From Sipunculus nudus (lineage: Eukaryota; Annelida; Sipuncula; Golfingiida; Sipunculidae): DNA of 64,000 nucleotides. The notes beneath the pieces are model-generated. The model saw only the letters and a list, made by a program, of their open reading frames with translations, was not told where the DNA came from and made no database searches. Where the stretch lies: positions 40,553,558-40,617,557 of the forward strand of contig CM049310.1 in assembly GCA_026874595.1 (NCBI GenBank), in the 5' to 3' direction. The position numbers and the translations under genes were made by a program. This document shows, piece after piece, positions 43,601-50,317 of the stretch. How positions within the stretch are numbered: the stretch's first letter is position 1; every line of letters begins with the position of its first letter.

Positions 43601-46600
43601 TCAATGTTAATGTCAAACTCTGATGTGGACAGAATTTTAGTCACCCTAGACATATTTGGAAAAAAAAGATAACTAATATCCTGTTTAGAGTTCACAAAGG
43701 ATGAATCAGTTTGGCTTTATGGAGTTGAGCTCTCATTGTTATACTTAACCATGACTAACTTTAATGCCAGTAATTTCCTGTGAGATCATTTGTGTTTTCT
43801 CTCGCATGAGAAATCAATTAACCTGTAGTTGGCAAGGAAACCACACACGTCTTATGTTTCATTCATGGATCACCATTTTTTATTACACACTCTGTTGCGA
43901 GATCAAATTTTATATACACAAATCATATGAACAGGTGATGTGTTCAGGAAGTGTTGGCTCAAAGTACACTGGAACTTATACATATAAAACCAAGCCACCT
44001 CTGTCCTCGATCACAAGACCATGCATATATTGCAAACACCCTCTCTATACCTTGAACATAGAGTGCCAAAAATAACTGACTGAAAAAAAATAAATTTTCT
44101 TGCCCGACTTTCTATAATTTCTTAGTCTTATCATTTGGAAATTTTTTGACAAGAAAGTTTTATAGATATTATGGCAATTATAGATTGTGGAGAGTTTGGT
44201 GGCAAGGGAATACATGTGTATATTGAGAAAGTTTAGAGTGGAATAATGCTTTTTTGGACTACACCTGATGCTTAAATGATAGTAGTATATGTGGTTATTT
44301 AAAAGCTTTAGGTATCTAACCTTTTAATTTAAATTATGATTATGATAACATTTGAGGACTTATGCTGTACTGGTATTTCTTCTTCTTGCAGATCAAACTG
44401 GAATAGCAGCTCGGGAAATGAAGTTCTCCTGAATCAGCTCGTCTGTCCGGCAGACAACTTAGGCACCAGTTGGGACAGACGGCTCCACTCAAATCCTGGT
44501 ACAGAGGGCCTTTTAATAAAAACAGATCCATCTAAACCCTCTCTGTAAATGAATGAATGTGTTACCTCCTAAAGGTGCTTGCAGTGATTCCACTTCTTTA
44601 AAGTTTCACAAAGGATCACTCACATGCTTTTATGTATTCTAAAGCAACAGTTGGCAGAATTAAGGTTGGGGGGGGGGGGGGGGGGGAAGGTTCCAACTTA
44701 ATAAGTATATATTTTAAATTTTGTTATTCTGAATGCAACCTATTTCAGTTTTACTCTACTCCATTCCATCTATTCTCTCAATCTGAAATTTGTATATTTC
44801 CATAAGTTAGTATCACTGATAGCAAGGGTTTTATATCCTATAAATGCACAGACACTGGACATTTTCACATGACAAAACACACATTTCATCCTGGCATGGC
44901 TGCACAAAATGTGCAATGAACCTATTCAATCTTTCTACTTCTAAGTTCTAGTGCAATGCTATCTTTATATTACTGTGTACATCTTTTAGTCAAACCACTA
45001 AACTAAGGTTATTGAAATAAAACTTGGAAAACATATCACTGAAATAATTTTTTGTTTGTAATAAACAGGGGCAGATACAGAATTTGAGAATGGGGGGGGG
45101 GGGTGCAGAAGGGGGAGGGTATGGATGGGGGGGGGGGGGTTCACCCTCATATACTAGCTGACATAGTGTAGAAATATTAAAAAGTTTCACCTTCAGACTG
45201 TTATGGTTTGAACTGGGGATAGTTTGATATACACATGATACAAAATTAAGCTATTTTTCAGTATAAAGTTCTTATTTTTTAATGTCCCAGAATTTTTCAA
45301 CGGAGAAATGGGGGCTAGCACCCCCCCCCCCTAAATTGGCTCTGATAATGCCAAAACAAATGCAGCCTTTGTGGTGATGAGAATAAGTGTGGCAGAATAC
45401 CTCTATATGTAATACAATGCTTGTGCTCTCCTTTTTGCCTTTGCCAGGAGGGTATGCACTTTTCCCTGCTCATGTGTGTGTGTTCGCAGTGTGAGTCCGG
45501 CACAAGATCCGGATTCAGGAAAGTCATCAAGGAATATTCATAAATATACAGTCACTTATCATTTGTTATGCAAGAAGGAACCTCAGGAATATGGGCCAAA
45601 TAAGTGAATGCAAACATGGTTTTGGGAGCATCTCACAATAGGGAACTCCCCTCCCCCCCCCCCCCCCCCACACACACACATGGCAGAAGCTTGCATTTCT
45701 TAGAATACAGATTACTTTCTATCTACATCATGTGTAAAACTTTATATGGCAACAGAAGCCTGCAAAGTGCTCAGTAAGGAACCATGGGGATTGTCATTAA
45801 AAACAATAATTAAAATGCACTAACAACAGGTATCTATCAGTTGAAACATTATTCACTTGTAGGGAGGCATGATTACAAGGGGGCCCATTTTACAGCTGTT
45901 TTGTATGTGTAATTATTTAAATCTTGTACCGTGCTTTATGTCACATTTAAACTTCATTTTATTATCTCATGCCACTTATGTTTCCTCTGTGCATGCTACA
46001 GATCACATCAAGTGTCATTGACCTCACACGACCTGTATACAGGCGAGTCAAAAACATGTACAGACAGCTAGGCAGAGGTCTATTTCTTCAAGTTTACAGA
46101 GACATGTTCCAGTCTGTTGAAATTTGGTATATTTATATTAATAGCCAAGATAACTGAAATTCCTCTCAGCTAAAGCCTTCAGCTATCAGCCTTTGTCTGA
46201 TGTCTTTTCATCCATTAACACAGCACAGATCTTAACCATAGGAGTTGGATATAAAGACATCTGACTTTACATCCAGGAAGGTCCTTAAACTAGGAATAAG
46301 GAGAACACTTGTTATAAACTAAAAGATCAATTCCAAAATGTAACCAAAAAGGCTTGTACATTTAACCTAGTGGGGAAAAATGCAATATTACTAATTATAG
46401 AAATGCAAGGTCTGGGAAACATTCTAATTATCACAGCATTTCAATCCAAAGAAATATGGTCAAGATACCCAGTCAAGTGCATGCAACTTTAAAAGCTGAT
46501 AGTCTGTTGTTGGTGCCATAAATTTATACGTTAAACTTTTCTCGCAAAATGGTCTGTCCGGTCTCCTTGCAATGATTAACACATATATATATATATTTAT

Positions 46601-49600
46601 TCCATCAGCCATCATTTTTTTAAGTATTTCCAAGGCAGACTGACTTTCAGAAACAGACATGATGACACAAATGGCACAGTTTAAGTTATAAAGGTGTAGT
46701 TGCAGGGAGATGAAGAAATTTATTTCAGCTTGGAATGTATTGTTTTTGGTTATATTTCTAATATTATGTTCATATGAATGCTTATGACTGGTCGAATGGA
46801 TAAAAAACCTGAGGTGCAGCTGCACATTGTTTAAGGCTTTGGTGGTTATCATCTCAGTTAATGTTATATATATATATAAATATATCATGAATACACTGTA
46901 TATGTACTATTACCTTATTTATCTGTGTAGAGACACGTTATTCTAGAAAAATCTTTGACTAAATTCTTTGTATACTTTTTGATTTAATCACATCTTAAAA
47001 ACTTCCAATATGATGTCAAGGTTTTTATTATTTGGAGATTTGTATTAAAATTTTGGTTTTACTGAGGCCTGACAAATGATGTAAACCAATAAACAGTACA
47101 TCAACTTGTCCACAAAACAAAAAAAACCCCTAAAATTGACTTTATAGTTTATGATGGGGTGTAAATTCAATATAAACACCTGGAATTAATCTATGGTTTT
47201 CAATAAACACTAGTTGTAAATAAAAATTAGGTTATATTATATGTTATTTCAGGAAATCAGTACAAATATTCTAGCTTCAATCAGTGTTAATGAGGGTACA
47301 TATAATACACAATAATACATGGTGCTGTCATAAAATCCCCTGACATCACCAAAGTATTTTTTATACACCAGAATTATTCATCAAATATTTTTGAAGATTT
47401 ATTTTATCACAAAAATCATATCTTATTGAGCAATGTTTTATTATGAATTATATAATTACTATATATATATATTAATTAGTAACAAACATAACAAAATTTT
47501 GATGATAAAAATTAGTAATCAGGTTATTATTAACAGCTGCAAAAAATTGTTTGTTGACTTGCATTCAAAATCAATAATTCATAATAAGAATCCATGCACA
47601 CTGATTATGAGGTAATTATTTTTCAACATCAATAATAAGAAAAAAACAATTTACTTTTAATAAGAGGTTCTCCAATAATGATAATTTTGCTATTTTTTTT
47701 TTTTTTTTTTTTACAAAAGGGAAGGGGACCTGGCATGTTCAGTATGACAGTAACCTTTGACCTTTTACCTTAGGTGTCACTTGTCCTTTATCAGGGACAT
47801 GTGTACTGATAAGATTAAACATCAACATATCAAGGAAGTGATGTTATTAGTACACCCCACCTTGTGCATCGCCACCGCTAGTAAAAACACCAATGGCTTC
47901 CCCCACATAGCTTCCTTTAGCTACGAATTTCCCTTCTTTTCCCATCATAACTACGTGCCTGCTGGCTTTCCTCTGCAGGGGTGGCCGTTTTTTGGGAGTG
48001 GCTGTGGCCAACTTGACCACGTCAAGGCCATTCTCATCAAACTTGTCAGCAGCTTCATGGCTTTCTACTTCCATGGTTAATCCTGATTTGATCCGAGAAG
48101 TTGGGGAGCCCAACTATTTCCTGGGTATGCTACAGACCACGCCACAAGGTGCTAATTGACCTCACACAACCTGTATTTTTACAGGTATTTGTATAGAGTG
48201 CTAGGCCCAAGTCTGTTTCTTCAAGTTAACAGGGACAGGTTCCAGTCTGTTACACAAGGGTGTACCCATTGAAATATTTGTATATAAATAGCCCATATAA
48301 CTGAAAGTGAAATCAACTCGGCTATAGCTACCACCATTTGTCTGATGTCCTTTCATCCATTAACTGGGAACAGATCTCAACCATTACACTTTACAGTTGG
48401 AAACAGAAACTTCTGACTTTACTTCCAGAAAGGTCCTTAACTAGGAATAAGGAGAACAAATAAGGTGAGGGCCTAGATACATTTTACAGAATAGGGGAGA
48501 AATACAATATTATTTATTATAGAAAAGCAATGTCTGGGAAAACAGTCTAATTTTTCACAATATTTCAATCCAAGGATATATGGTCAAGATATTCAGTCAA
48601 GTGCATGCAAATTAAAAAGTTGATCCTGATAGTCTGTTGTTGGTGCCATAATTTAAATAAAATAAAAATTTCTCCCAAAATAGGTTTGTCCGGTCTCTTT
48701 GCAAAGACTGACATGTATATTGATATACTCCACTGCTGACCAAGGCCATCATTTTTAAAGTATCTTCAAGGCATAATGACATTCAGAAACAGACATGTTG
48801 ACACAAATGTCATAGTTTCAGTTATGAATGTGTAGTGGTCAGGGAGATGTATAAATTTATTTCAGCTTCGCATGTTTTGTATTTTATAAAATATGTTCAT
48901 ATGAATGCATATATATATATAAATATATAAATGTGATATATATATGAGTTATGTGGATAAGACAACTGTAGTTCAATAGCACATTGTTTAATGCTTTTCA
49001 TTTGGTGTTTATCACTGCAGTTAATGTTATTTTTATTATATATATGTAAATACACTCTAAGGCATTATACTTTATTTATCTGTATAGAGACAATTTTTTC
49101 CTAAAAAGATCCTGAACAAAATGACCATGCATACACTTGATTTTTGTCACATCAAGAAACTTCCAATATTATGTCAAGGTTTTGGTTATTTGGAGATTTG
49201 CATAAAATGACAAGTTTTTGTGTACTGAGGCCTGACAAATGCTGTAAACTAATAAACAGTTAATAAACCTGTTAACAAATCAGAAAACAAAACCAAAAAA
49301 TTAATTTTATATTTTATGATGATGTGCATGTAAATTCAATATAAATACCTAATAATTAATCTATCGATAGACTTCAATAAACCCTGGTTGGTTGTAAATA
49401 AAAAAAAATATATTACATATCAGGAAATCTTGCAGTACAAATATCCTTATCTTCAATGAGTGGTTGTAATAATAAGAGCATATAATACCAGTAATATATG
49501 GTACCATCATAAAAATCCTTGACATCATGCACATATTTTTATATACAATTGAATTTTATATCAGATATATTTTTGTACTTTGGATCAATCACAAAAATTG

Positions 49601-50266: not shown

Positions 50267-50317
50267 GGTTAATCCGGATTTGATCCGAGAAGTCGGGGAG
50301 CCCAGCTGTTTCCTGGG
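48124..50317 (-). repeat. Tandem segmental duplication, unit with exon 1a
   Basis: This is the second copy of the unit at 45,998-48,123, slightly longer. The break is visible after TTTCCTGGGTATG: unit 1 continues into CTACAGACC (start of unit 2) while unit 2 continues into unique ACCTTGGTTG sequence. Confidence 0.93.
50056..50266 (-). CDS. PFK: PFK alternative first exon 1a (outermost)
   Basis: An ATG at 50,266 opens 70 codons plus one base, starting [20 protein letters not shown] and ending [16 protein letters not shown], with a GTAGGG donor. Residues 1-56 or so are an acidic-then-basic extension before the catalytic fold; LQRKSS (Ser38) fits an RKxS kinase site. The frame is open upstream for 27 more codons without an ATG (reaching a TGA near 50,350), and an out-of-frame ATG lies near 50,346. 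This exon lies next to the probable gene start, so it may be the ancestral first exon. Confidence 0.93.

Follow-up and report, generated by a model that had tools for sequence, protein, structure and literature searches.

Tandem copies of the first coding exon as probable alternative starts of phosphofructokinase-1 in Sipunculus nudus

The phosphofructokinase-1 (PFK-1) gene of Sipunculus nudus carries two similar first coding exons in tandem, raising the question of how the second copy arose and whether both are in use. The window, a stretch of 64,000 nucleotides from contig CM049310.1 of assembly GCA_026874595.1 (positions 40,553,558 to 40,617,557 of the forward strand), contains the 5' half of this ATP-dependent PFK-1 gene on its minus strand, and all positions below are those of the window. 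We consider it fairly likely that the first coding exon was duplicated and that both copies have been kept by selection as alternative starts, the choice being made by the start of transcription. The gene would then probably make the PFK enzyme with two slightly different front ends. The locus would be a clean case (synonymous divergence, dS, of about 0.3) in which the first exon of an enzyme controlling glycolysis was copied, but not its promoter, and the copy seems to have been retained.

Three first exons on the minus strand end in the core motif followed by a phase-1 GT donor fitting exon 2. The coding part of exon 1b (50056..50266) holds 70 codons plus one base and closes at the donor AAG|GTAGGG; that of exon 1a (47861..48074) holds 71 codons plus one base, the extra codon being a Met codon, and closes at AAG|GTGGGG. 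Both close with ...GCA CAA G|GT, the last base of the 1a coding sequence being the first base of the split Gly codon. Both have full frames and the same ATG context, and the core motif TSGGDAQG is intact in 1a. Exon 2 (25191..25264, minus strand), which provides the common acceptor, begins at 25264, directly after tgcttgttccag, and each tandem first exon should be able to join it in frame. The junctions 47861/25264 and 50056/25264 given in the initial annotation are correct by sequence, as are the full frames and the shared donor phase that it described. Its near-identity of the C-terminal 28 residues agrees with a single amino acid difference among the last 27 complete codons. That the exons are interchangeable holds in so far as both fit exon 2 in phase 1; their use as transcribed alternatives, the choice of promoter and any regulatory effect we infer.

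The third, divergent first exon, 1c, also named in that annotation, was located at 28944..29046 on the minus strand, with the donor AAG|GTGATT in the same phase. Its core motif is in phase, and tblastn within the window gave E values of 7e-4 and 0.001. Donor scores were 9.1 for 1b, 5.4 for 1a and 3.9 for 1c, using a small matrix built from 10 other donors of the PFK gene. For 836 background GT sites the 90th and 95th percentiles were 4.0 and 5.4, and when each of the ten real donors was omitted in turn their scores ranged from -2.9 to 9.5; splice matrices of 10 to 11 sites are too small to decide on first exons. The weak 1c donor is not above the best tenth of chance GT sites, so the case for 1c rests on its in-phase core motif.

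The product agrees with the assignment to ATP-dependent PFK-1, having a PFK domain with a TSGGDxQGMNAAVR start. The N-terminal half of the spliced 1b product matched Pfam PF00365 (PFK domain) over residues 60-365 (E 2e-105), and so did the 1a and 1c products when truncated behind exon 6 (E 3.1e-69 and 6.1e-69). The exon 1a and 1b peptides taken alone matched no Pfam family. The best PDB match of the 1b product was 4omt, muscle PFK (E 9.5e-220), from residue 48 on.

Exons 1a and 1b belong to two head-to-tail units of about 2.2 kb on the minus strand. Unit b (48130..50321) consists of a 55-nt leader, exon 1b and about 1.9 kb of downstream intron, and unit a (45996..48129) of the corresponding leader, exon 1a and downstream intron, its low edge being placed by microhomology to within 15 nt. 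Direct repeats spaced 2122-2195 bp extend through both units (20 of 26 families among the matches listed), and the global alignment of the units is collinear, with 88.5% identity over the 269 columns of leader and exon. The highest identity among 1730 other windows of 269 columns was 77.3%. The intron copies are 74.5% identical over 1789 aligned bases (457 differences), and the Kimura two-parameter distance is 0.12 for the exon and 0.31 for the intron. Differences between 1a and 1b number 4 of 55 nt in the leader and 24 of 211 in the coding sequence; gap runs number none in the leader, one (3 nt) in the coding sequence and 41 in the intron, 34 of which are not multiples of 3. The tandem segmental duplication and the heavy divergence of its flanking non-coding DNA, both noted earlier, are thus borne out. 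Each unit does contain a first exon, as had been said, located at the start of the unit in the sense of transcription rather than at its end.

The upstream edge of the unit lies near 50321, just 55 nt above the ATG of 1b and inside the leader. Unit a ends with TCTGTAGCATGCACAGAGGAAA and the junction between b and a reads TCTGTAGCATACCCAGGAAA, indicating a short imperfect repeat common to the original edges, present as CATACCCAGGAAA in the leader and CATGCACAGAGGAAA in the intron. A blastn search of the window (E 0.01) revealed no third copy of the unit, the sole other matches being 37-38 bp at exon 1c and 33 bp at 56124-56156, in an AT-rich repeat.

Amino acid change is reduced between the two exons. 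Excluding the additional Met codon of 1a, the alignment comprises 70 codons, of which 12 show an amino acid difference and 10 a silent one. The ratio of nonsynonymous to synonymous change (omega) was 0.29-0.30 under three frequency models, and twice the log-likelihood difference (2dlnL) against an omega of 1 was 7.3-7.7; by counting, the bootstrap 95% interval of omega was 0.10-0.55. An omega of 0.5 would be the average of a free and a fixed copy; for this reason the most lenient null was simulated, in which one copy stayed frozen while the other evolved neutrally at either the synonymous or the intron rate and with intron indels (four settings, 20000 runs each). Runs in which the neutral copy retained its ATG, had at most 12 changed codons and carried no stop or frameshift made up 0.33%, 0.31%, 0.12% and 0.08%. 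The rarity of this outcome suggests that constraint has probably acted on both exons during much of the period since duplication, in line with the selection on both copies proposed at first.

The changes are not evenly distributed. Amino acid differences affect 11 of the 43 codons of the N-terminal extension, against one of the 27 core codons (Fisher P 0.022; P 0.056 for nonsynonymous against synonymous changes). A fit with two omegas gave 0.45 for the extension and 0.06 for the core part (2dlnL 5.9 over a single omega), and with time fixed to the intron value an extension omega of 1 was rejected with 2dlnL 11.9. The reported concentration of differences in a regulatory extension is therefore seen as to the concentration; the word regulatory is an interpretation.

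The region upstream of the 1b leader is not duplicated. It includes a likely promoter in single copy (50322..50621, minus strand), recognized from composition and consensus words alone: the observed/expected CpG ratio is 1.05 against 0.41 for the window, and TATAAAA is located at 50528. Above 1a, TATA-like words only are present, TATACAA at 48284 and 48195. Because the duplication begins within the leader, 1a arose without the upstream region; the likely promoter was left out of the duplication, and 1a did not originate as a copy of a promoter-exon cassette. Such an exon has to acquire a promoter in the tail of unit b or else be reached by splicing out of the upstream leader. Of these we prefer the own promoter because known loci more commonly have it, though the evidence does not strongly favour either.

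The leaders are 55 nt each (1b, 50267..50321; 1a, 48075..48129; minus strand) and differ at 4 positions, the binomial probability of so few at the intron rate being 0.0005 (examined post hoc). Read in the exon frame, three of these differences are synonymous and one is an in-frame TAG in 1a where 1b has CAG, as though coding sequence had formerly reached further up in this frame. Between the 1b start and 50500 (234 nt) there is no in-frame ATG, and one ATG in another frame. Translation of the leader was rejected, the sole upstream ATG of 1b being out of frame and 1a having a stop, and the leader pattern is left unexplained. An RNA hairpin considered by eye in the leader was dropped, as two of the four leader differences are within it without compensation. 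As to hypoxia elements within 500 bp, one GCGTG was found at 48142 above 1a, none above 1b, and overlapping CACGT/ACGTG above 1c; as 0.55 are expected per 500 bp, we make no claim of hypoxia control.

Other explanations were considered for the likeness of the two exons. Tandem near-copies are common in assemblies of heterozygous genomes, in which two haplotypes of one exon may be set in tandem, and similarity within the unit peaks in the exon, as recent gene conversion would have it. However, dS in the exons is 0.27 by codon maximum likelihood or 0.32 by counting (NG86; bootstrap 95% 0.15-0.55), close to the intron value of 0.31, so that silent change has been about as fast in exons as in introns, which disfavours both. 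A haplotype artefact is highly improbable in view of this synonymous divergence, far above the usual allelic difference, of intron copies 25% different with 41 gap runs, and of the microhomology at the duplication edges; conversion is still harder to credit, as each of the two parts of the exon has 5 codons with synonymous changes. Judged by this divergence, the two tandem copies of the first coding exon are old. A number of observations do weigh against the use of both exons as alternative starts. In the comparison of 1a with 1b proposed at first, an omega of 0.5 is not rejected by likelihood (2dlnL 1.4-1.5), and the rejection of an extension omega of 1 is only weak when time is left free (2dlnL 3.2). 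The case against a neutral copy depends on a simulation that trusts the intron rates and assumes neutrality since duplication, and a recent loss of 1a may be invisible to it. The 1a donor is weaker than that of 1b, the CpG ratio in the 300 bp above the 1a start is 0.23, and acceptor-like sites are located above 1a (scores of 7.3 at 48218 and 4.7 at 48300 and 48120). The undecided omega, the low CpG and the weaker donor would suit the use of 1b only, with 1a as a slowly decaying or rarely used copy kept alike by selection on 1b and by chance, as would the lack of the upstream region in unit a from the beginning and the Glu beside the core of 1a, where 1b and solved human PFKM have Lys. This we judge quite unlikely, because the simulation gave P of 0.0008-0.003 and 1a has no stop or frameshift and an intact core motif.

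The acceptor-like sites imply that 1a could also be an internal exon, and one promoter with alternative splicing might then serve both exons: transcripts would start near 50500, and the leader would either run into 1b or be joined from a donor at 50324 to an acceptor at 48120 or 48218, so that 1b is skipped. This would explain immediate expression of a copy born without a promoter. The donor at 50324 (AAG|GTCATA) scores 5.2, between the 90th (4.0) and 95th (5.4) percentiles of the 836 GT sites; the acceptor at 48218 is between the 95th (5.9) and 99th (8.5) percentiles of 804 AG sites, with no ATG between it and the 1a start, and that at 48120, within the 1a leader, is above the 90th (4.2), the corresponding AG of 1b scoring -1.3. 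Comparable scores, however, arise by chance within a few hundred bases, and high or low values carry little meaning here: the acceptor matrix performs poorly, with 5 of the 11 real acceptors falling below 1 when omitted in turn, and therefore neither supports nor excludes splicing of the leader. By arithmetic, a transcript including both 1b and 1a through the acceptor at 48120 would be out of frame (46 nt plus phase 1). On balance we hold the single promoter to be a possible arrangement, though an unlikely one.

In the account that we favour, with separate transcription starts, the first coding exon and about 2 kb of downstream intron would have been duplicated head to tail by exchange at the short imperfect repeat. 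Exons 1a and 1b, each with its own donor and each joined to exon 2 in phase 1, would both be kept by purifying selection as alternative protein starts. The start of transcription would determine which is used, the old CpG-rich promoter giving 1b and a promoter evolved in the tail of unit b (with the TATA-like TATACAA at 48195) serving 1a. The isoforms would have the catalytic core in common, and the N-terminal extension would distinguish them, most likely in its regulation. If both exons are transcribed, isoform-specific control of PFK can be tested by two peptides or two junctions.

The extension of about 43 residues precedes the PFK domain, which starts at residue 60 of the 1b product; for that product, the best stretch of each of 29 PDB sequences (E 0.001 or better) starts at query residue 43 or later. 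Both the 1a and 1b extensions carry LQRKxSxxxV, which we take to fit the consensus patterns of PKA and AMPK. Shuffling the extensions gave PKA-like and AMPK-like patterns in about 14% and 6% of cases, so that by themselves they do not exceed chance, and exon 1c has no AMPK-like pattern; the kinase-site patterns are thus a lead only. An extended proposal, in which a captured promoterless exon gives two or three N-termini differing in and around a kinase site, with promoter choice setting the response to energy or oxygen, is in our estimation unlikely. As a precedent for an N-terminal phosphosite in another glycolytic enzyme, Ser11 of pyruvate kinase in oysters is described as conserved in bivalves and gastropods (PMC11269933).

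Eleven common exons, 2 to 12, extend on the minus strand from 25264 down to 7627, as identified by tblastn with a human muscle PFK sequence and with edges set by splice signals: after exon 2, these are exon 3 (24673-24596), exon 4 (23818-23629), exon 5 (23031-22866), exon 6 (22353-22309), exon 7 (13648-13540), exon 8 (12064-11969), exon 9 (11251-11159), exon 10 (10414-10289), exon 11 (9746-9682) and exon 12 (7681-7627), the last found. A GC donor (GAAG|gcaagtta) apparently closes exon 11 at 9682, forming a GC-AG intron. Between 7627 and base 1, tblastn gave no convincing exon of the second, C-terminal PFK half, so the gene probably runs off the window. A 280-bp unit is present five times in tandem (86% matches) at 37595-38996, within the long first intron. 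A 128-nt direct repeat, 73% identical (51848-51975 / 52260-52387), is located above the likely promoter, and 55775-56084 holds about eight copies of a 40-bp unit adjoining an AT run. An exon of ribosomal protein L19 (59526-59801, PF25476, E 2e-23) is located on the plus strand, opposite to the PFK gene. No RNA families (at gathering scores) or tRNAs were found in the window.

Among the matches listed from titles and abstract openings of the open-licence literature, there was no report of duplicated PFK first exons. Pattern matches of the exon 1b peptide in microbial and viral contigs were confirmed by tblastn in 0 of 203 and 0 of 42 cases, a result uninformative on related animals. For mammalian Pfkm, testis and embryo isoforms differing at the 5' end were reportedly studied in 2004. 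Mammalian Pfkm has a sperm variant, PFKMS (PMC4736023). Substitution of tandem duplicated exons is known for human PFKP and PKM (PMC9741552), likewise a choice of tandem homologous exon in a glycolytic enzyme; there a residue binding the ligand fructose-1,6-bisphosphate differs, while here it is the N-terminus. In Drosophila hydra, initial exons were duplicated recurrently and at least 4 of 9 can act as transcription starts (PMC9013439); unlike PFK, hydra is classed among duplications of untranslated-region exons, and seven of its exons are flanked by the DINE-1 transposon. The tandem 5' cassettes of chelicerate sDscam, generally preceded by a promoter (PMC4835542), and of clustered protocadherins are joined to constant exons as in PFK, but they are many, generally of two or four exons, and encode adhesion-type proteins and not a metabolic enzyme.

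The closest likeness is with human UGT1A, in which homologous tandem first exons are joined singly to common exons to give different N-termini (PMC9013439). The PFK locus likewise has homologous tandem first coding exons followed by common downstream exons. UGT1A has thirteen first exons, each under a promoter of its own and coding for the substrate binding site, whereas PFK has two and a divergent third, encoding the extension of about 43 residues and the first core stretch only, and the region above its leader is not duplicated. The architecture itself, an established route of gene diversification, is thus already known, and is found here in a central metabolic enzyme; as read from the sequence, the locus adds the PFK-1 N-terminus to the known tandem homologous first exons.

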